Positions 17,040 to 35,812 of a stretch of 40,606 bases of DNA are shown here, piece by piece. The notes beneath the pieces were generated by a model. It saw nothing but the letters and a program-made list of their open reading frames with translations, was not told the origin of the DNA and did no database searches. The position numbers were made by a program, and so were the translations under genes. The number at the start of each line of letters is the position of its first letter. The first letter of the stretch is position 1. The stretch is from Bdellovibrionales bacterium (GTDB lineage Bacteria > Bdellovibrionota > Bdellovibrionia > Bdellovibrionales > JAGQZY01), in NCBI GenBank assembly GCA_020435205.1, contig JAGQZY010000017.1:1-40606 (forward strand), read 5' to 3'.

Positions 17040-17154
17040 TAAATCTCAATTTGATTCAGATTTATTCCGTCTCCTATCACTTATTGGGACTTTCTTTTTC
17101 TTTGACTCAATATCTAGTAAAATGAAAGGGAGTTCTAAGGGTTTGGGGGAATTC

Positions 17155-18960
17155 ATGTTAAGTTGGGCAAAATCTATTTTCGCTTTATTTTCTATTGGCA
17201 TATCACTTCTATTTTTTCAAAACTGTGCACCTCAGGGTGATTTTGTCGCTTTATCTGAGCATGACTCAGTCGCCCCAACAGCCTCAGAAAACTTATCTGA
17301 GGATGCCCTCCTGTCTGAAGCTTCAGTGGCAAAAAGTCACAGCGAGGACAACAGTTCTATTTTCTATATCGGCGACCGTCGCGTGGGAGAGGATCACCAT
17401 AAGTACAATGCTTGTCGACAAAAAGATGGCGAAGCATTTGTTGCTGGTACCACATTGTACAGCCAGGAAGATGAACAAAAAATGGCTGGGCAAATTTTTA
17501 ACGTTTTGGATTTTGGGGCCTACGGAGACGGAGAGCACCACCGATTTGATGGCCAACCAAACCCAGCTTGCGGCTCTCATTGCCATCCTCGCCTCGCTCG
17601 CTTTATGGAATTATTTGCGGGTCAGCTTTCATTGAAGCGCGAGAATTATGAACTTAAGTTTTCTGGCGACCCTTCATTAGTCCAAAGGATAAATTTTGAA
17701 AAAGGCATCAACAGTGACGACGAATGGGATTGGATTGCGATTCAAACCGCTCTGTTCGCAGCCGGGCTCTCTGGTGGCGGTACTGTCATCATTCCAAACA
17801 CTGGCCATGATTATTTACTGTCCAGATCTCTATGGATGTATTCCAATACGAAATTGGTGTGGGAGGGCGCTGTTTCCCCACAAGTGCAAAGCTACGTGAA
17901 GTTGATTAAGCCCAGCTATGGGGTGGGTACAGTGATAAGTAACCTCAACCCTTACGATGCCCAAACCTATACAGGAAAATATGATGATGCCTCCACAGAT
18001 ATTGAGTTCAAAAGGGCCTCAAGAAATTTTCGCTGTAAAATCTATTTAATCAACCCAAGGGTCAAAGCCATGGTTGGAGAAAATGGTTTGGCTTTTGCCA
18101 AAGGAGCTTATGATGTTCGCATCGTCGGTGGTCATGTCACTGGAGCTCGCTGGGGAACCCGACAAGATTTCATCAATGGCTACAATGAACAAGGTGGCAG
18201 AGCTCTGCAATTTGAATCCGGCGTGCAAAAAACCATTGTCATGGGGCTTCGCATTTCTGACTCCACCATGGGGTCCTCCAACAGTGCTGGCCTCTACATG
18301 GCCTCCAGAAGCAATAACAACCGCTATCTCAATGCTGCCGATGACATTTACTTAAAGAACATATTCATGGAGCGAGTGAACCTTCCCTTTCTTTTTTCTC
18401 ACCTTGGTCACTCCCTGGACATCCATCAAATAGAAAGCCAAGCCCCTATGAGGGTTCGAGTGGCTGACTTTGTTATAAAGGATATGAAAGATTTAGATAT
18501 GGATCTCGAGTTTCCCTATTCTAAACTCGCCAAAAAAGATCATGCTGGTGTATTCAATTTTCTAGGAGGAAGGCACATCCTTATTACTTCGTCAGCATCA
18601 AGTACCAATAAAATCAGCAATAGCAGTAGCCGCCGTTCTTTAGTCAAAGGTTTTGGCCATGACATCCATATCAATAGTATTGATATTTACGGCAATTATC
18701 AAAACCTGGTCGATTTGTATTTACCTTTGGGAAGACTTTATTCCAGCTACTCACTTTCAGAGCTCTATTTGAAAAACCTAAACTTCAGCGGGAAAATAAA
18801 TCAGATTATTGAGGCGCCATTGGCTAGTGAAAACAACTACAGGGTACAAGATATTGGTTTCGATAATATCCATAGTCGCTTGAGCCCCGATCGAATTTAC
18901 TCGAGACCAGATGTTTTCGATAAACTGAGCTCTGAAGTTGTGATCCTAAACTCTTTTTAA
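17155..18960 (+). CDS. FQNC lipoprotein with pectate-lyase-type beta-helix
   Basis: 601 aa from ATG 17155, chosen because GGGGGA precedes it and it gives a compact signal peptide; the upstream in-frame ATG 17122 lacks these. The lipobox is FFQNC, with Cys24 as the lipidated residue. Residues about 105-260 carry the Pectate_lyase_3 hallmark: FNVLDFGAYGDG, a DDEWDWIAIQTAL segment (normally DDTxAIQxAL), then GGGTVIIPNTGHDYLLSRSLWMYSNTKLVWEG. The rest is Gly/Asn-rich with repeated strand patterns, as in a right-handed parallel beta-helix. These folds bind or cut polysaccharide; no catalytic residues can be assigned. A surface polysaccharide or prey-envelope substrate is only a guess. Confidence 0.82.
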   Translation: MLSWAKSIFALFSIGISLLFFQNCAPQGDFVALSEHDSVAPTASENLSEDALLSEASVAKSHSEDNSSIFYIGDRRVGEDHHKYNACRQKDGEAFVAGTTLYSQEDEQKMAGQIFNVLDFGAYGDGEHHRFDGQPNPACGSHCHPRLARFMELFAGQLSLKRENYELKFSGDPSLVQRINFEKGINSDDEWDWIAIQTALFAAGLSGGGTVIIPNTGHDYLLSRSLWMYSNTKLVWEGAVSPQVQSYVKLIKPSYGVGTVISNLNPYDAQTYTGKYDDASTDIEFKRASRNFRCKIYLINPRVKAMVGENGLAFAKGAYDVRIVGGHVTGARWGTRQDFINGYNEQGGRALQFESGVQKTIVMGLRISDSTMGSSNSAGLYMASRSNNNRYLNAADDIYLKNIFMERVNLPFLFSHLGHSLDIHQIESQAPMRVRVADFVIKDMKDLDMDLEFPYSKLAKKDHAGVFNFLGGRHILITSSASSTNKISNSSSRRSLVKGFGHDIHINSIDIYGNYQNLVDLYLPLGRLYSSYSLSELYLKNLNFSGKINQIIEAPLASENNYRVQDIGFDNIHSRLSPDRIYSRPDVFDKLSSEVVILNSF

Positions 18961-30375: not shown

Positions 30376-31221
30376 CTAGTAACCGCCTCCGCCGTCACCG
30401 CCTGGTGTCGGCGTTGGTGGTGGTGGTGGTGGTGGGGCCGCTTTATCCAAGAATATCTGAATATGATCAACGGCTGTCATGCCATCTGGACTCGTCTGCG
30501 ACACATTAATATGATGCATAGTCATGAAATTTGGTAAGTGAACTGTGAGAGTAAAAATACCCTCAGAAGTACACTGAGTTTGCACTCGTGGTACATCGCC
30601 CATGGCCACGATAGAGCCTGCGCCAGGCTGACAGCGTCCAACCAAAGTTACGTTTTGTGATCCCGATTCCGATTCTGGCTCTGGAGAAATCACTTCCACA
30701 TTTGGTGGAGGAGTCATGTCATTACATGGGTGACTTGGATCCCCATCGACGCCCCACAATTGAAAGCCTGGGGACATAGGAAGTTGAATGACATCAATTC
30801 CATCATCACCATCATCAGCAAAAACAAGAACAGGACGGCAGATATGATCAAATGGCACTGTGAAACTAAAACTAAGAACTTCTGGACCGCTACCAGTTCC
30901 ACCGGAGTCTGGAGTGAAAGCTACTGTATCACCTATATGAATGCGACCACCATCTTCTTGAACGACATAAAAGTCGATAGCGACACCGGAGTCTCCGCCA
31001 TCAGGGTCATTGACCACCCCATTGATCACACCTTGATCACTCATCGAGGTCAACTCACCGGATAGACTATTGGAACCGATGTCCAATTGATTGTTGTTGT
31101 CGGTTGAGGTTTTTTCAACATTGCCGCTAGCATCAAAACCGTGTTGAGAACAGTTTTGAAAAACTGCAAACATCAACCCACAGCTGGCTAGCGAAAGCAC
31201 AACCTGTTTATACATTCTCAT
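30376..31221 (-). CDS. FQNC lipoprotein with Pro/Gly-rich C-terminus
   Basis: 281 aa from ATG 31221 (GGGGGGAAT upstream); an open extension to 31281 lacks support. The lipobox is VFQNC with Cys24. The mature protein has Asp/Gly-rich linker sequence, two immunoglobulin-like strand-rich regions (about 60-150 and 165-260; the second has a typical surface-repeat ending 'TSPDGMTAVDHIQIFLDKA'), and a low-complexity tail of seven Pro, then TPTPGGDGGGGY. It is probably a surface lipoprotein; I do not recognise a catalytic domain. It is divergent from the haem-lipoprotein operon, sharing its 205-nt control region. Confidence 0.8.
   Translation of the reverse strand: MRMYKQVVLSLASCGLMFAVFQNCSQHGFDASGNVEKTSTDNNNQLDIGSNSLSGELTSMSDQGVINGVVNDPDGGDSGVAIDFYVVQEDGGRIHIGDTVAFTPDSGGTGSGPEVLSFSFTVPFDHICRPVLVFADDGDDGIDVIQLPMSPGFQLWGVDGDPSHPCNDMTPPPNVEVISPEPESESGSQNVTLVGRCQPGAGSIVAMGDVPRVQTQCTSEGIFTLTVHLPNFMTMHHINVSQTSPDGMTAVDHIQIFLDKAAPPPPPPPTPTPGGDGGGGY
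30415..30435 (+). repeat. TGG triplet repeat (seven copies)
   Basis: Seven tandem TGG units (CCA on the coding strand) encode the poly-Pro run near the C-terminus of the FQNC lipoprotein. Copy changes would alter tail length by whole residues without shifting the frame. Confidence 0.9.
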
Positions 31222-31274
31222 GGCATTCCCCCCTGGTGGTTTTGGCCACCATATAATTATCTTAACAAACACCA

Positions 31275-31319
31275 GTCTCAATCCCGTGCTTTTTTCTTAA
31301 GAACGTCTGAGATTGAAAC
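31275..31319. promoter_or_regulatory. Inverted repeat in the divergent control region
   Basis: GTCTCAAT (31275-31282) and ATTGAAAC (31312-31319) form an inverted repeat with one mismatch and a 29-nt centre. The right half belongs to GTCTGAGATTGAAAC (31305-31319), one of three near-identical elements in the window. It lies 84 nt from the minus-strand lipoprotein start and 108 nt from the plus-strand operon start, so it could serve both. Confidence 0.4.
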
Positions 31320-31426: not shown

Positions 31427-32803
31427 GTGGGGAAAAAGCTTACAGCAGCACTCTTACTATCAAGTGTGTTTCTAACATTCCAAAATTGCGGAGATTTTCA
31501 ACCTCAGCAAGCCTATACGGAAAACCGTGAATCTTTTTCTGTTGATCCTGATTTAGATCCTACGATATCGGAAACCTACAATTGGGCACGCACCATTATG
31601 CAAAGAGTCGCTGGCGTAAGCCTTGGACCTGAAGATCCAGAAATGATCGAGATGATGGGACACCTACAAAACCAAGACGCTCACTCTGCTATAGCTGTGG
31701 CGACACGCCATGATGGCTATTACAATGTCACTCTTCGCGAAATTGCTGCTCCCATGTCTAATCGCGAAGGCAATATTGCTGAGCCCTTAAATGACTTTAT
31801 TGCTACCTTTGTTGGGCTTGTTCGTGATGATCAAAACGCAAAGCTCATGCTTGTTGGTGATGCCTACTACAAAGGCTCTGCTGCTGACACCAACAAACAG
31901 AACGTCTTGAATGATATGATTCGAACGAACGACCACTATCAGGATTTGGACAACAAAGGTATCAACCTACAGCAATCATTAGTGAGCGAACCCATCCAAC
32001 AAATTATCACTGATGACAACCAAGTGATCGATATGCCGGATGCGGCTGGTCTCATCACTAGCCGAGCTTTTATGCAAGCCAATGCCTTTAAAGGGTCGAA
32101 CCGAAGATTGGTTGAACATTCCCTCAAGGATTTCTTATGTTCACCTATTACGTCCTGGGCCGACATCAACAACCCTGATGACAAGGTTGGACAAGATGTG
32201 GATCGCTTTCCCGTTGGCAAAAATAGTATTTTTCAGAGCACTTGCAAAGCTTGTCATTCCGCTATGGACGCCTATAGACCTGCTTTTGCCCACGTGGATT
32301 TTGACCTTGATGAAAGTAATGATCAGTTTTCTTTTATTAAATACAAGTTTAATATTCAAACCGACCCTCATCCAACCAACCCTGGCGAAACTGTAATTGT
32401 TCCTTTTTCCCAGCAATTTATTCCGTCGAAATTTCGACGAAACAAAGATGTCTACCCACCAGGGTTTCTTGTCACCAATGACACTTGGTTCAACTATAAT
32501 TTAGGGCAAAATAATATTGAACGCTTTGGCTGGAGATCACCAGCGCAAGGCAACGGCATAAAATCTTTCGGAGAACTTCTTTCAGAGTCCAAAGCCTTTA
32601 GTCGCTGTATGGCTAAGAAAGTTTATAAAAAAGTCTGTCGCAAAGATTTGGACATGGTGGAGAGTCCAGTGATTCAGGAGCTCGCTGAAGACTTTGAACA
32701 AAAAAATTACTCAGTCAGAGAGCTAACCATTTCGACAGCTATGCGGTCGGACTGCTTTGGGTTGGATGTCAGCGAGATCGAATACGAGGAGGTAAATCAA
32801 TGA
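31427..32803 (+). CDS. FQNC lipoprotein with CXXCH haem motif
   Basis: 458 aa from GTG 31427, with GGGGGG 3 nt upstream. The lipobox is TFQNC with Cys21. One c-type haem-binding motif, CKACH (residues 273-277), sits in a 'STCKACHSAMDAYRPAFAHVDFD' context close to the CxxCHxxxDPxGFAxExFD signature of DUF1588-type and planctomycete-type cytochrome domains. The N-terminal 250 residues are helical. Met residues downstream that could be the sixth ligand cannot be picked by eye. It is first in a four-gene operon, overlapping the next gene by 4 nt (ATGA). Redox function is inferred. Confidence 0.82.
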   Translation: MGKKLTAALLLSSVFLTFQNCGDFQPQQAYTENRESFSVDPDLDPTISETYNWARTIMQRVAGVSLGPEDPEMIEMMGHLQNQDAHSAIAVATRHDGYYNVTLREIAAPMSNREGNIAEPLNDFIATFVGLVRDDQNAKLMLVGDAYYKGSAADTNKQNVLNDMIRTNDHYQDLDNKGINLQQSLVSEPIQQIITDDNQVIDMPDAAGLITSRAFMQANAFKGSNRRLVEHSLKDFLCSPITSWADINNPDDKVGQDVDRFPVGKNSIFQSTCKACHSAMDAYRPAFAHVDFDLDESNDQFSFIKYKFNIQTDPHPTNPGETVIVPFSQQFIPSKFRRNKDVYPPGFLVTNDTWFNYNLGQNNIERFGWRSPAQGNGIKSFGELLSESKAFSRCMAKKVYKKVCRKDLDMVESPVIQELAEDFEQKNYSVRELTISTAMRSDCFGLDVSEIEYEEVNQ

Positions 32804-33399
32804 GACTGATTTTAGCTCTTGTATTTTTATCTCTTGCCAGTTGCGCTCCCATGGAAAGCAACGAAAATCGTGGTTTAGCCTCTGAGGGCCTTTGTACCAA
32901 TTGTTCGAAAAGCCTCGGTAAGGTTGAGGAAAGTAGCCCTACCCAGATTCTTAACCAAACTCGCACCCTACAAAGCTATCGGACTTGCCTGGGTGCAAAA
33001 ACTTTGGATGAAACCTCAGTCACAAAATATAATACTATAAAATCCAACCTCTCATATGGTGGTGAGGCGAGTTCAATCAACAACACAGTTGTTTTTACTA
33101 ATGTCAAAGCTGCTGTCGTTTCTTGCCATGCCGCTATTGAATACGCAAAAAGAACCAACGATCGAACGGTGTTTATGGGCTTTAGCTTGGATAATGTTGG
33201 TTTTGGTAACCCAGACCAAGAAGGTACTATCCAGAAAATTGCCCAAAACTGCTGGGGAAGAAAAGCAACCCAACAAGAGATCGACTTTATTCTTAATAAA
33301 AGCAATCAGATATTTATTGGAGGACAAAGGGCCTCGCGTGATGCCGCCATGTTTATATGTATAGCTATGCTTTCCACACCGGACGCAATGAAACAGTAG
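32800..33399 (+). CDS. Small lipoprotein in the haem/DUF1501 operon
   Basis: 199 aa. The standard lipobox LASC gives Cys15. A CTNC motif follows shortly (GLCTNCSKS) but lacks the His of a haem site. Three further Cys are spread through the mature protein (RTCLGAK, VVSCHAA, QNCWGRKA) with one more in MFICIAM, so disulfides or metal binding are possible. 'NCWGRKATQQEIDFI' recalls the helical 'LLGRxPTxxE' element often found next to DUF1588/DUF1800-type proteins. Its start overlaps the upstream gene and its stop is 8 nt before the DUF1501-like gene. Confidence 0.75.
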   Translation: MRLILALVFLSLASCAPMESNENRGLASEGLCTNCSKSLGKVEESSPTQILNQTRTLQSYRTCLGAKTLDETSVTKYNTIKSNLSYGGEASSINNTVVFTNVKAAVVSCHAAIEYAKRTNDRTVFMGFSLDNVGFGNPDQEGTIQKIAQNCWGRKATQQEIDFILNKSNQIFIGGQRASRDAAMFICIAMLSTPDAMKQ

Positions 33400-33407
33400 G
33401 AAAAGAG

Positions 33408-34934
33408 ATGAGCAAGAAAGATCTACAAAAATTGAAAGTGCAGGAAGAGGTTGAAAAAACCTTGCACGACTATTGTGTTGAGGGTGGCCATACATTCCCT
33501 CGAAGTCGCCGGGAATTTTTATCTTCAGGTTTAATCAGTCTGAGTGCAACAGTTATGGCACCCACTCTTTTTTCGCTGATCAACAATCGAGCTCAAGCGG
33601 CTGAAGGCTGCCCAGTGGGTGATCCGTCTCTGTCTCCATTTATCCAAATCAACCTTGCAGGTGGGGCCGCTTTATGCGCCAACTTTGTGGCTGGAGATGA
33701 ACAAGGAAATCTCTTATCTAGCTATCAGCGCATGGGATTAGGAACAACACCGTCGCTCACTCGAGTTTGTAGCAACCAAGCGCCTTTTGCTACCGGATCT
33801 GGTTTTTTAAGTGGTTTGCAGGCCGGGGCCAATGCAGCTACTCTCTCCACAACGGGTTTTGTATCCATGAGTGCCTTTTCTTTTGATGATACTCCCGACA
33901 ACGAACAAAACATTATCGGTCTTGTCGCCCATGCTGGGCAACAGGGGCTTTATCTTCCTACGACGCTTGCGAGTTCTCAGATTAGAGATTTTGGCCAGGT
34001 TCAGGTGAGTAATTCAAAGTACTTTTCCTCACCGGCATTTATGGCGCCCCCCTCCCCACTAAAGGTGGACTCCGTGGGATCGCTTATGGAGGCCTTAACC
34101 TTACAGACACCAACCTTAAATGATATCACTGGAGTTCTGAGCAGCCAGCAAAGCCTTTATCAAACATTAATGGGCGTCATTAGTGATCTCTCTAAATTTC
34201 AACTCAACGCCATGCGCACTCGCACTCCATCTTCTGAGGAGTTTAAAAAACTCATGAAATGTGCTCATGAACAAAATGATAACTTTGTCCAGGCGAATCA
34301 AAGTCTTCCCAATCTAAACATTGAACAGGAATCTGGCCTTTCTAGCTTCTGGCTCAATGATTCCGACCTCGAGAAAAACAAAATTCTTGGATCTATCGTA
34401 CTTTCGACTCTGAAAAGAGTGAGTGGGCCTGCTTTTATCCAATTGGGTGGTTACGATTATCACCAGGGAGCAGGGTCTCGACCCAAGGCAAATGAAATGG
34501 ATGAGTTTGCTGGTAAATTAGTGGGGCGCATCCTTAGAACAGCAAAGCTCTTGAATACTCCTGTCTTTATATATGTGACTAGCGATGGTTCAGCTTTTTC
34601 TAATGAATCGTCGAGTAACACCGTCGGTTTTGCGGGAGATCGAGCCACTCATGCTATGAATTTTATGTTTGGATTTAAACCCAGTGTAGCCCCACAAATG
34701 GGTGCCGAAATGGGACCCAGCTATCAACTCAACCATTTTGATAAAGTGGGTCTTGAAGTCAACACTCTCCATCTTGTTGGAAAGAGCGTGCCTCTTAGCT
34801 CCGCAGCTGCTTTTCTGAACTATTTAAGCTTTAGTGGAAAGATGGGATTGCTCAGCAAACCAGAACTACAGAAAGTGAAACAAGCCATCACCGATGCCGG
34901 CAGCTTAGAAGAAGTTTTAAGGTTTAAGGGATAG
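33408..34934 (+). CDS. Tat-exported DUF1501-like protein
   Basis: 508 aa from ATG 33408, with AGGAAAAGAG upstream; the frame is open to 33357 but that part overlaps the previous gene. After a 32-residue charged leader comes a twin-arginine signal, SRREFLSSG (R34/R35), with the hydrophobic stretch LISLSATVMAPTLFSL, so it is exported folded. 'FIQINLAGGAALCANFVAGD' matches the DUF1501 start (usually LVQIFLxGGxDxxNxxVP), and 'FIQLGGYDYHQG' plus 'TPVFIYVTSDGSAF' match its later WDTH and TSEFGR regions in weakened form. DUF1501 belongs to the alkaline-phosphatase/sulfatase-like fold; the usual metal residues look partly lost. Confidence 0.8.
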   Translation: MSKKDLQKLKVQEEVEKTLHDYCVEGGHTFPRSRREFLSSGLISLSATVMAPTLFSLINNRAQAAEGCPVGDPSLSPFIQINLAGGAALCANFVAGDEQGNLLSSYQRMGLGTTPSLTRVCSNQAPFATGSGFLSGLQAGANAATLSTTGFVSMSAFSFDDTPDNEQNIIGLVAHAGQQGLYLPTTLASSQIRDFGQVQVSNSKYFSSPAFMAPPSPLKVDSVGSLMEALTLQTPTLNDITGVLSSQQSLYQTLMGVISDLSKFQLNAMRTRTPSSEEFKKLMKCAHEQNDNFVQANQSLPNLNIEQESGLSSFWLNDSDLEKNKILGSIVLSTLKRVSGPAFIQLGGYDYHQGAGSRPKANEMDEFAGKLVGRILRTAKLLNTPVFIYVTSDGSAFSNESSSNTVGFAGDRATHAMNFMFGFKPSVAPQMGAEMGPSYQLNHFDKVGLEVNTLHLVGKSVPLSSAAAFLNYLSFSGKMGLLSKPELQKVKQAITDAGSLEEVLRFKG

Positions 34935-34936
34935 CT

Positions 34937-35812
34937 ATGAACAAGGTAACGACCGGGCTCTTATTTTTTATTACTTTTATTAGCGCTGTACTCTTTCAGA
35001 ACTGTGGCGGTCCTAGCCATTCTGGATCGGTTTCTAAGGGTTCAGGTACGGATGACGATTTAAGTAAAAAAAGTTGTGAGGTTATCTTGCAGGAAGCCTA
35101 TCGCGACACCTTTCACTCCTTTGCCTTAGAAAACCGCTGTAACCATTGCCATGTTGTTGGCGGCGCTGGAAAAAGTGCCTTTGCCCAACCCGACTATATC
35201 CCTGCTATGGATGCCTTTATTGGTCTTGGTGGCGCTGAAAAGTTTGCTCTTAAGGCTGTCAGTGACCATCAAAGTGGATACACAGGCCCTCACCTCGCTC
35301 CTTCTGTCAGTGACAACGTAGAGACCTGGTCCGCGGCTGTCGATAGCTACAATAGTTGCGGCCAAGACCAAGTGGAGAATCCTGAAGTCCGCTACGTAAC
35401 CTCGGAAAAATTGATTAACTTAATCAATGCGAATGGCACTCCTAAGACGAGTGATGAATTCCAGAAAATCACCTGGGACCTCAGCCAAGAAGACTTTTCC
35501 GCAAATGCTGTGGGGGCTGAGTTTTCGATTTCAGTCATGTATACAGAGCGTTTTAAAGGAATTCCTGTCTACGTATTTACTTTCCCGACTTTAAAAACTG
35601 GCAATCAAACCATCACCATTTTAGGGGTCAATGTCGTGATCAATGGAGAAAAGTACGGACGCACCACCTTTGACTTCAAAAGTGTCACACTCGCTCCAAA
35701 CTCCACTATCCAACTCTCAAATATTGGTTTAGATCTTCAACCTGAAAATGGCGAATTCATCACGGCTGGCGATGTGGTTCAAATTGAGTTTGATTACTTT
35801 ATTGTGAACTAG
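34937..35812 (+). CDS. FQNC lipoprotein with CXXCH motif, last gene of operon
   Basis: 291 aa; ATG 34937 lies 2 nt after the stop of the DUF1501-like gene. The lipobox is LFQNC with Cys23. The haem-type motif CNHCH is at residues 68-72, within 'YRDTFHSFALENRCNHCHVVGG', like a mono-haem cytochrome segment of about 100 residues (23-150). The C-terminal 140 residues are strand-rich (TFPTLKTGNQTITILGVNVVING, FDFKSVTLAPNSTIQLSNIGL), probably a beta-sandwich. No disulfide-forming or catalytic pattern is evident there. Its 3' end overlaps the convergent small membrane protein gene by 14 nt. Confidence 0.8.
   Translation: MNKVTTGLLFFITFISAVLFQNCGGPSHSGSVSKGSGTDDDLSKKSCEVILQEAYRDTFHSFALENRCNHCHVVGGAGKSAFAQPDYIPAMDAFIGLGGAEKFALKAVSDHQSGYTGPHLAPSVSDNVETWSAAVDSYNSCGQDQVENPEVRYVTSEKLINLINANGTPKTSDEFQKITWDLSQEDFSANAVGAEFSISVMYTERFKGIPVYVFTFPTLKTGNQTITILGVNVVINGEKYGRTTFDFKSVTLAPNSTIQLSNIGLDLQPENGEFITAGDVVQIEFDYFIVN

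Follow-up and report, generated by a model that had tools for sequence, protein, structure and literature searches.

Planctomycetes and Verrucomicrobia have an abundance of PSCyt, PSD, and DUF1501 proteins, which, to our knowledge, have no known function. In Verrucomicrobia, PSCyt genes are found near those for sulfatases and include carbohydrate-binding modules (PMC5615132). A separate group of gene clusters encodes DUF3570, which is flavinylated by ApbE, as shown by expression and mutation, along with thioredoxin-like proteins and DUF4266 (PMC8238504). Here we describe an operon of four genes, P1 to P4, located at positions 31427 to 35812 of contig JAGQZY010000017.1 from a Bdellovibrionales bacterium (GenBank assembly GCA_020435205.1); the window is the whole stretch of 40,606 nucleotides, starting at position 1 of this contig, that was analyzed. 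The operon combines distant relatives of the PSCyt and DUF1501 proteins and probably encodes an electron-transfer complex of the cell envelope.

The four genes are co-directional on the + strand in the order P1-P2-P3-P4, with an overlap of 4 nucleotides followed by gaps of 8 and 2 nucleotides; this set of nearly touching genes had been noticed in an earlier, sequence-only reading of the window, and its open reading frame coordinates, overlap, and both gaps were reproduced. Two of the products contain a CXXCH haem-attachment motif, which, from composition, would be expected by chance about 0.002 times per protein. P1 (31427 to 32803; GTG start, 458 amino acids) carries it as CKACH at residues 273 to 277 (32243 to 32257) and P4 (34937 to 35812; 291 amino acids) as CNHCH at residues 68 to 72 (35138 to 35152), with all Cys and the His invariant in 50 of 50 relatives of P1 and in 31 of 31 relatives of P4. 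Judged by its family, P4 is a clear relative of cytochrome c, with a PSCyt1-type N-terminal region and a beta-rich C-terminal domain. Of the 31 relatives, 24 match Cytochrom_C and 12 match PSCyt1 in Pfam, and the P4 family profile matches chains of cytochrome c6, bc1 cytochrome c, and cbb3 (CcoP); these matches are best in a second, C-terminal cytochrome domain that is present only in the longer homologues, and the P4 of the window taken alone has no Pfam match. By these Pfam and profile matches, the CXXCH segment of P4, initially proposed to be part of a haem-binding fold, belongs to the cytochrome c superfamily.

Sequence comparison also identifies P1, an exported protein with a single CXXCH, as a divergent member of the PSCyt3-PSD2 (DUF1588-DUF1585) group. 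Among its relatives, Pfam (E<=0.1) detects PSD2/DUF1585 (PF07624) in 24 of 33 and PSCyt3/DUF1588 (PF07627) in 7 of 33, and P1 itself matches PSD2 (1.6e-5; 28.5 bits, over the cut-off, in the genome search; 24.9 versus 25.8 as a protein). When aligned by hhalign with classical PSCyt3 proteins of the same phylum (96.5 %, E 7e-10, 297 columns), its haem motif falls opposite theirs (CKACHSAMD versus CFGCHREMD). This alignment starts only at residue 211 of the reference PSCyt3 profile, and the N-terminal PSD3/PSD5 domains of PSCyt3-PSD2 proteins were not found in P1 by profile alignment. The invariant CXXCH and the homology to PSCyt3 together suggest that P1 binds haem. With a CXXCH and PSCyt homology in both P1 and P4, the view that the cytochrome parts are split over two proteins is upheld. 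Membership in a DUF1800-DUF1501 pair was rejected, as P1, P2, and P4 all scored below 1 % against the DUF1800 profile; searches of PDB sequences with P1, P2, and P3 returned only matches without meaning.

The CXXCH motifs could also be structural, the four proteins forming a surface or sensing complex with no redox role. P1 lacks a PDB match, despite an AlphaFold2 model with a predicted local distance difference test score (pLDDT) of 88.7 and a predicted template modeling score of 0.86, and its family has, besides CXXCH, additional invariant Cys and Asp residues, which would suit disulphides or metal. Such a complex is nonetheless very improbable in view of the clear cytochrome c kinship of P4, the invariance of Cys and His of the motif in both families, and the linkage in relatives to thioredoxin, DUF3570, and ApbE.

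P2 (32800 to 33399; 199 amino acids) is a small Cys-containing predicted lipoprotein that could be assigned to no known family. In Gammaproteobacteria, the order is P1, a gene for a single protein of ~830 amino acids, and P3. The P4 profile matches this fusion protein at its cytochrome part and C-terminal beta domain; a Laminin_G_3 domain is also present, the P2 domain comes last, and there are two CXXCH motifs in all. Because P2 and P4 are parts of one polypeptide there, they can be expected to act together, and this P4-LamG-P2 fusion is the strongest evidence that they do. A weak hint of PSD5/DUF1595 was seen in 3 of 29 relatives of P2. The idea that P2 is the N-terminal part of PSCyt3 was discarded after a match of 70.8 % dropped to 3 % upon removal of the signal peptide.

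P3 (33408 to 34934; 508 amino acids) has a twin-arginine translocation (Tat) signal region in which R34 and R35 (33507 to 33512) are invariant in 59 of 59 relatives. It is a DUF1501-like protein with apparent alkaline-phosphatase ancestry. A Pfam scan of 32 members of the P3 family for DUF1501 (PF07394) gave no match. In profile comparison, P3 scored 84 % globally with DUF1501 (E 9e-7) versus 0 % with a DUF1552-like set, and DUF1552 was rejected as its parent on this ground; local profile matches reached 55 to 90 % over short stretches. With the AlphaFold2 model of P3 (pLDDT 82.6) as a query, the top PDB matches in Foldseek came mostly from the alkaline-phosphatase superfamily, all of them weak (best E 3.5e-3, TM 0.2-0.3). 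Relative to the better-conserved DUF1501 proteins, P3 has kept the GG, the D-x-H, and the last Asp, whereas EFGR is lost, as are the Asp in GGxD and the His in TDHG, with GGxD, SEFGR, and TDHG reading GGAx, SDG, and D[RN]x in its family; the complete GGxD/D[TS]H/SEFGR/TDHG set is absent in divergent DUF1501 proteins, too. The weakened metal motifs ascribed to P3 at the outset are thus real in the sense that only part of the set is retained, and the proposed relation to the DUF1501 and DUF1588 families holds as well. Among 59 P3 proteins, D161, D350, Y351, H352, D393, G394, and D411 are invariant, the D-Y-H at residues 350 to 352 (34455 to 34463) being the counterpart of D-[TS]-H in DUF1501. 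The invariance of these Asp and His positions suggests that the metal site is reduced yet constrained against drift.

A constrained site of this kind would also suit a machine that degrades or modifies glycans, with P3 as an active surface hydrolase, LamG and P2 binding polysaccharide, and the cytochromes handling electrons for an oxidative attack. A carbohydrate role of this sort has been proposed for planctomycete and verrucomicrobial PSCyt clusters and is in line with the sulfatase neighborhood and carbohydrate-binding modules of the verrucomicrobial genes (PMC5615132), as it is with the LamG_3 domain that long P1 homologues share with the fusion protein of Gammaproteobacteria and with the invariance of D161, D350, H352, D393, and D411. 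However, LamG is missing from the proteins of the window itself, neither a glycoside hydrolase nor a sulfatase was noted adjoining the operon, two residues common to better-conserved DUF1501 proteins (the D in GGxD and the H in TDHG) are absent from P3, and the conserved neighbors are redox proteins, which makes the degradative alternative unlikely.

The P1-P2-P3-P4 order on a single strand is conserved across the order Bdellovibrionales, including Bdellovibrio bacteriovorus; a lack of such conservation had been named beforehand as grounds for abandoning the idea. P3 was detected in 40 of 60 relatives of the window's genome and was not found in the one relative of the same genus. A scan of GTDB genomes yielded at least 516 P3 relatives, and the 80 named loci that were kept come from Bdellovibrionales (including B. 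bacteriovorus strain kdesi), Bacteriovoracaceae, and Gammaproteobacteria (Marinobacter, Rheinheimera, Microbulbifer, and Alteromonadaceae, among others); the Bdellovibrionales members of this set have the unfused gene order. P3 matches were obtained in 26 of 185 sampled Gammaproteobacteria, and 23 of them have a near-complete P3 in a single piece, the remaining three (two short fragments, ~1e-24, and one match split over two contigs) being set aside. The suggested link to predation is not supported, given that Marinobacter, Rheinheimera, and Microbulbifer, among others, have the module and the same-genus relative does not. The window's genome contains a second, diverged copy of the four-gene operon across a contig break (C163/C109; loci L068 and L063).

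Both in Gammaproteobacteria, where it is fused, and in one family of Bdellovibrionales, where it is unfused and accompanied by DUF4266, the module lies between DUF3570-TlpA and ApbE. DUF3570 is encoded in 10 of 60 Bdellovibrionales genomes and shares a contig with the operon in seven. Six of these have intact contigs, with DUF3570 located 4.6-5.4 kb from P3 and ApbE 2.1-5.2 kb away on the opposite side; in the seventh (G042), the DUF3570 at the operon is only partial. In the Bdellovibrionales loci examined, a TlpA-like thioredoxin, DUF4266 with a C-terminal CXC, and a small CXXCH lipoprotein are encoded in the interval between DUF3570 and P1. All DUF3570-linked Bdellovibrionales genomes belong to one family and hence are not independent, with Gammaproteobacteria providing a second line of evidence. 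There, ApbE flanks the module in 27 loci, and a divergently encoded HZS_alpha-domain lipoprotein, which has two CXXCH motifs in the loci examined at length, adjoins P1 in 24; the wider loci also encode DUF3570, small outer-membrane barrels, and, in Microbulbifer, a TlpA-like thioredoxin, and some include TPR proteins with ExbB and ExbD (ExbB-ExbD-ExbD-TonB-like genes). A search for HZS_alpha in Bdellovibrionales gave no match, with equally empty controls, and is hence uninformative. In the P3 tree, a well-supported branch, with a Shimodaira-Hasegawa-like approximate likelihood ratio test (SH-aLRT) value of 99, separates the proteins of the Bdellovibrionales operons from those of Gammaproteobacteria; the gammaproteobacterial side also holds the Bacteriovoracaceae and two divergent P3-like proteins of Bdellovibrionales (L044 and the second copy in L066). 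As the two groups form separate P3 clades, the link to the flavin cluster does not stem from one recent transfer. The description of the system as self-contained in the sequence-only reading is not supported, since in these lineages the module sits inside a larger DUF3570/TlpA/ApbE cluster. The [ST]GA[ST] site of DUF3570 reads SAAS or TSAS in the Marinobacter and Bdellovibrionales copies, so flavinylation of these is not assured. As for the window, P1 to P4 contain no [ST]GA[ST] motif and the genome has no ApbE, on which grounds covalent flavin on these proteins was rejected.

As a side observation, in the gammaproteobacterial loci L215-L220, HZS_alpha diheme lipoproteins, DUF3570, barrels, and, in some, TPR/ExbB/ExbD/TonB-like proteins are joined to the module in an arrangement that resembles a trans-envelope machine.

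The same neighborhoods bear on metal reduction or uptake, in which ferric iron or some other metal would be reduced at the outer membrane by a flavin-cytochrome chain and the partial site of P3 would bind metal with no ester hydrolysis. The ExbB-ExbD-ExbD-TonB-like genes and outer-membrane barrels that flank some gammaproteobacterial clusters fit this scheme, as does the ferrous iron transporter reported in some DUF3570 clusters (PMC8238504). Yet neither the window nor the Bdellovibrionales loci examined showed a recognizable gene for a metal transporter or siderophore next to the operon, and ExbB/ExbD were not noticed in those loci, where they were not searched for systematically; we consider an iron-related role improbable.

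Several points weigh against electron transfer as the function of the operon. ApbE and DUF3570 were both absent from the window's genome in a genome search, and the evidence for these partners comes from relatives. A cytochrome c assembly gene is present in that genome (G000:C165:1219-1818) but has one in-frame TAG. The P1 model resembles no solved structure in the PDB (best E 5.3), the presence of LamG domains in some members may point to carbohydrates, and in P3 conservation is strict for D-Y-H, D161, D393, and D411 and almost strict for D365, which makes an active site conceivable. Still, an envelope redox complex, as first proposed, remains the best reading in light of the haem motifs, the homologies, and the redox neighbors in relatives, and all three rival explanations are less well supported.

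If this reading is correct, the four products would assemble into a physical complex in which P1 and P4, as exported c-type cytochromes loaded with haem, would pass electrons via haem c; the direction of this flow and its final substrate are conjectural. P2 would be a small companion subunit of P4. P3 would fold in the cytoplasm before its export through the Tat system; presumably descended from DUF1501/alkaline-phosphatase-like enzymes with partial loss of the metal site, it would most likely serve as a scaffold or a substrate-binding subunit. In relatives, the complex would be coupled to a flavin branch consisting of the TlpA-like thioredoxin, flavinylated DUF3570, DUF4266, and ApbE as the flavin transferase, and this flavin/thioredoxin arm would be its likely partner in electron exchange. 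In the window's organism, where the module stands alone in two copies, another carrier would be needed because the genome has neither ApbE nor DUF3570, and the cytochromes would exchange electrons with that carrier.

The sequence-only reading had counted three lipid-anchored products. For P2 and P4 this agrees with an invariant N-terminal Cys at the predicted lipidation site (29 of 29 and 31 of 31 relatives), whereas only 4 of 33 relatives of P1, all of them members of the family to which the window belongs, retain its lipobox Cys, so the predicted lipidation of P1 is a local feature; lipidation as such is a prediction in every case. In both P1 and P4 the lipobox is FQN-C, so that Asn occupies position -1, where Ala, Gly, or Ser is standard. 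Such Asn(-1) lipobox-like signals ([FY][QNT]N-C, often FQNC) account for 54 of 79 in Bdellovibrionales loci versus 1 of 45 in gammaproteobacterial ones and, outside the P families, for 8 of 15 versus 0 of 11, although those 8 may be mostly one family (FG-GAP lipoprotein). In the window they occur at 31427, 34937, 17122-18960, and 30376-31281 (- strand), and elsewhere in L068, L063, and many Bdellovibrionales loci. This is possibly a lineage-specific type of lipobox that is missed by standard predictors.

Some further observations concern the surroundings of the operon. A scan of it for promoters and terminators gave matches no more numerous than in shuffled sequence and none that was convincing. 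At two more places in the window's genome, a true DUF1501 protein is paired with a CXXCH protein that weakly resembles PSCyt3 or PSD2 (contig C86, L034 7805-10631; contig C96, L035 4999-8138), which brings its CXXCH/DUF1501-type loci to four in all. A gene for an FG-GAP repeat lipoprotein lies directly upstream of P1 in L124 (1141-3015) and in ten similar Bdellovibrionales loci, and in B. bacteriovorus (L156, 8763-10341) the operon is followed by genes for a further cytochrome-like protein and YceI. A contig filed as Streptomyces griseus (L150) bears the Bdellovibrionales version of the operon and is probably mislabeled.

More tentatively, the module may represent a widespread extracytosolic electron-transfer system, in which a Tat-exported pseudo-phosphatase holds the split PSCyt cytochromes together; in many bacteria this system would be coupled with flavinylated DUF3570 and a thioredoxin, and in lineages like that of the window it would work without flavin. 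If so, the long-unexplained PSCyt/DUF1501 gene pairs would gain a redox function. The positional tie to a flavin system with a biochemically proven component offers a first testable idea of what the module does, and this function can be tested directly, as the module is present in cultured Gammaproteobacteria (Marinobacter, Rheinheimera, and Microbulbifer) and in B. bacteriovorus.

Among described systems, the pair of PSCyt3-PSD2 and DUF1552-type proteins (Planctomycetes/Verrucomicrobia; in Bdellovibrionota, L204, L206, and L208-L210) resembles the operon in that P1 aligns to the C-terminal half of its cytochrome protein and a partner gene with an RR signal adjoins the cytochrome gene. In contrast, the partner in the window is DUF1501-like, those of L204-L210 having been called DUF1552 by eye, and the module comprises four genes rather than two, with the N-terminal part missing or on other genes. 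With DUF1501 (PF07394) proteins that accompany PSCyt2/PSD1 or DUF1800, P3 shares the Tat signal, GG, D-x-H, and a cytochrome-like neighbor, but its family lies below Pfam recognition and has GGxD, SEFGR, and TDHG replaced. All four partners of the DUF3570/ApbE/thioredoxin-like/DUF4266 clusters (Meheust et al. 2021, PMC8238504) flank the operon in one Bdellovibrionales family, and ApbE, DUF3570, and, in one locus, TlpA flank the fused gammaproteobacterial version; a term search of the main text of that paper found no mention of the cytochrome/DUF1501-like module. HZS_alpha diheme proteins are encoded beside the module in Gammaproteobacteria and are outside the operon of the window. No description of the four-gene module or of its DUF3570/ApbE link was found in the open-access literature searched, whereas subscription papers and supplementary tables, which were outside the search, may list it. 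The component families, whose function is unexplained, and the DUF3570/ApbE clusters are known, and the four-gene module is an uncharacterized variant of the PSCyt/DUF1501 theme.

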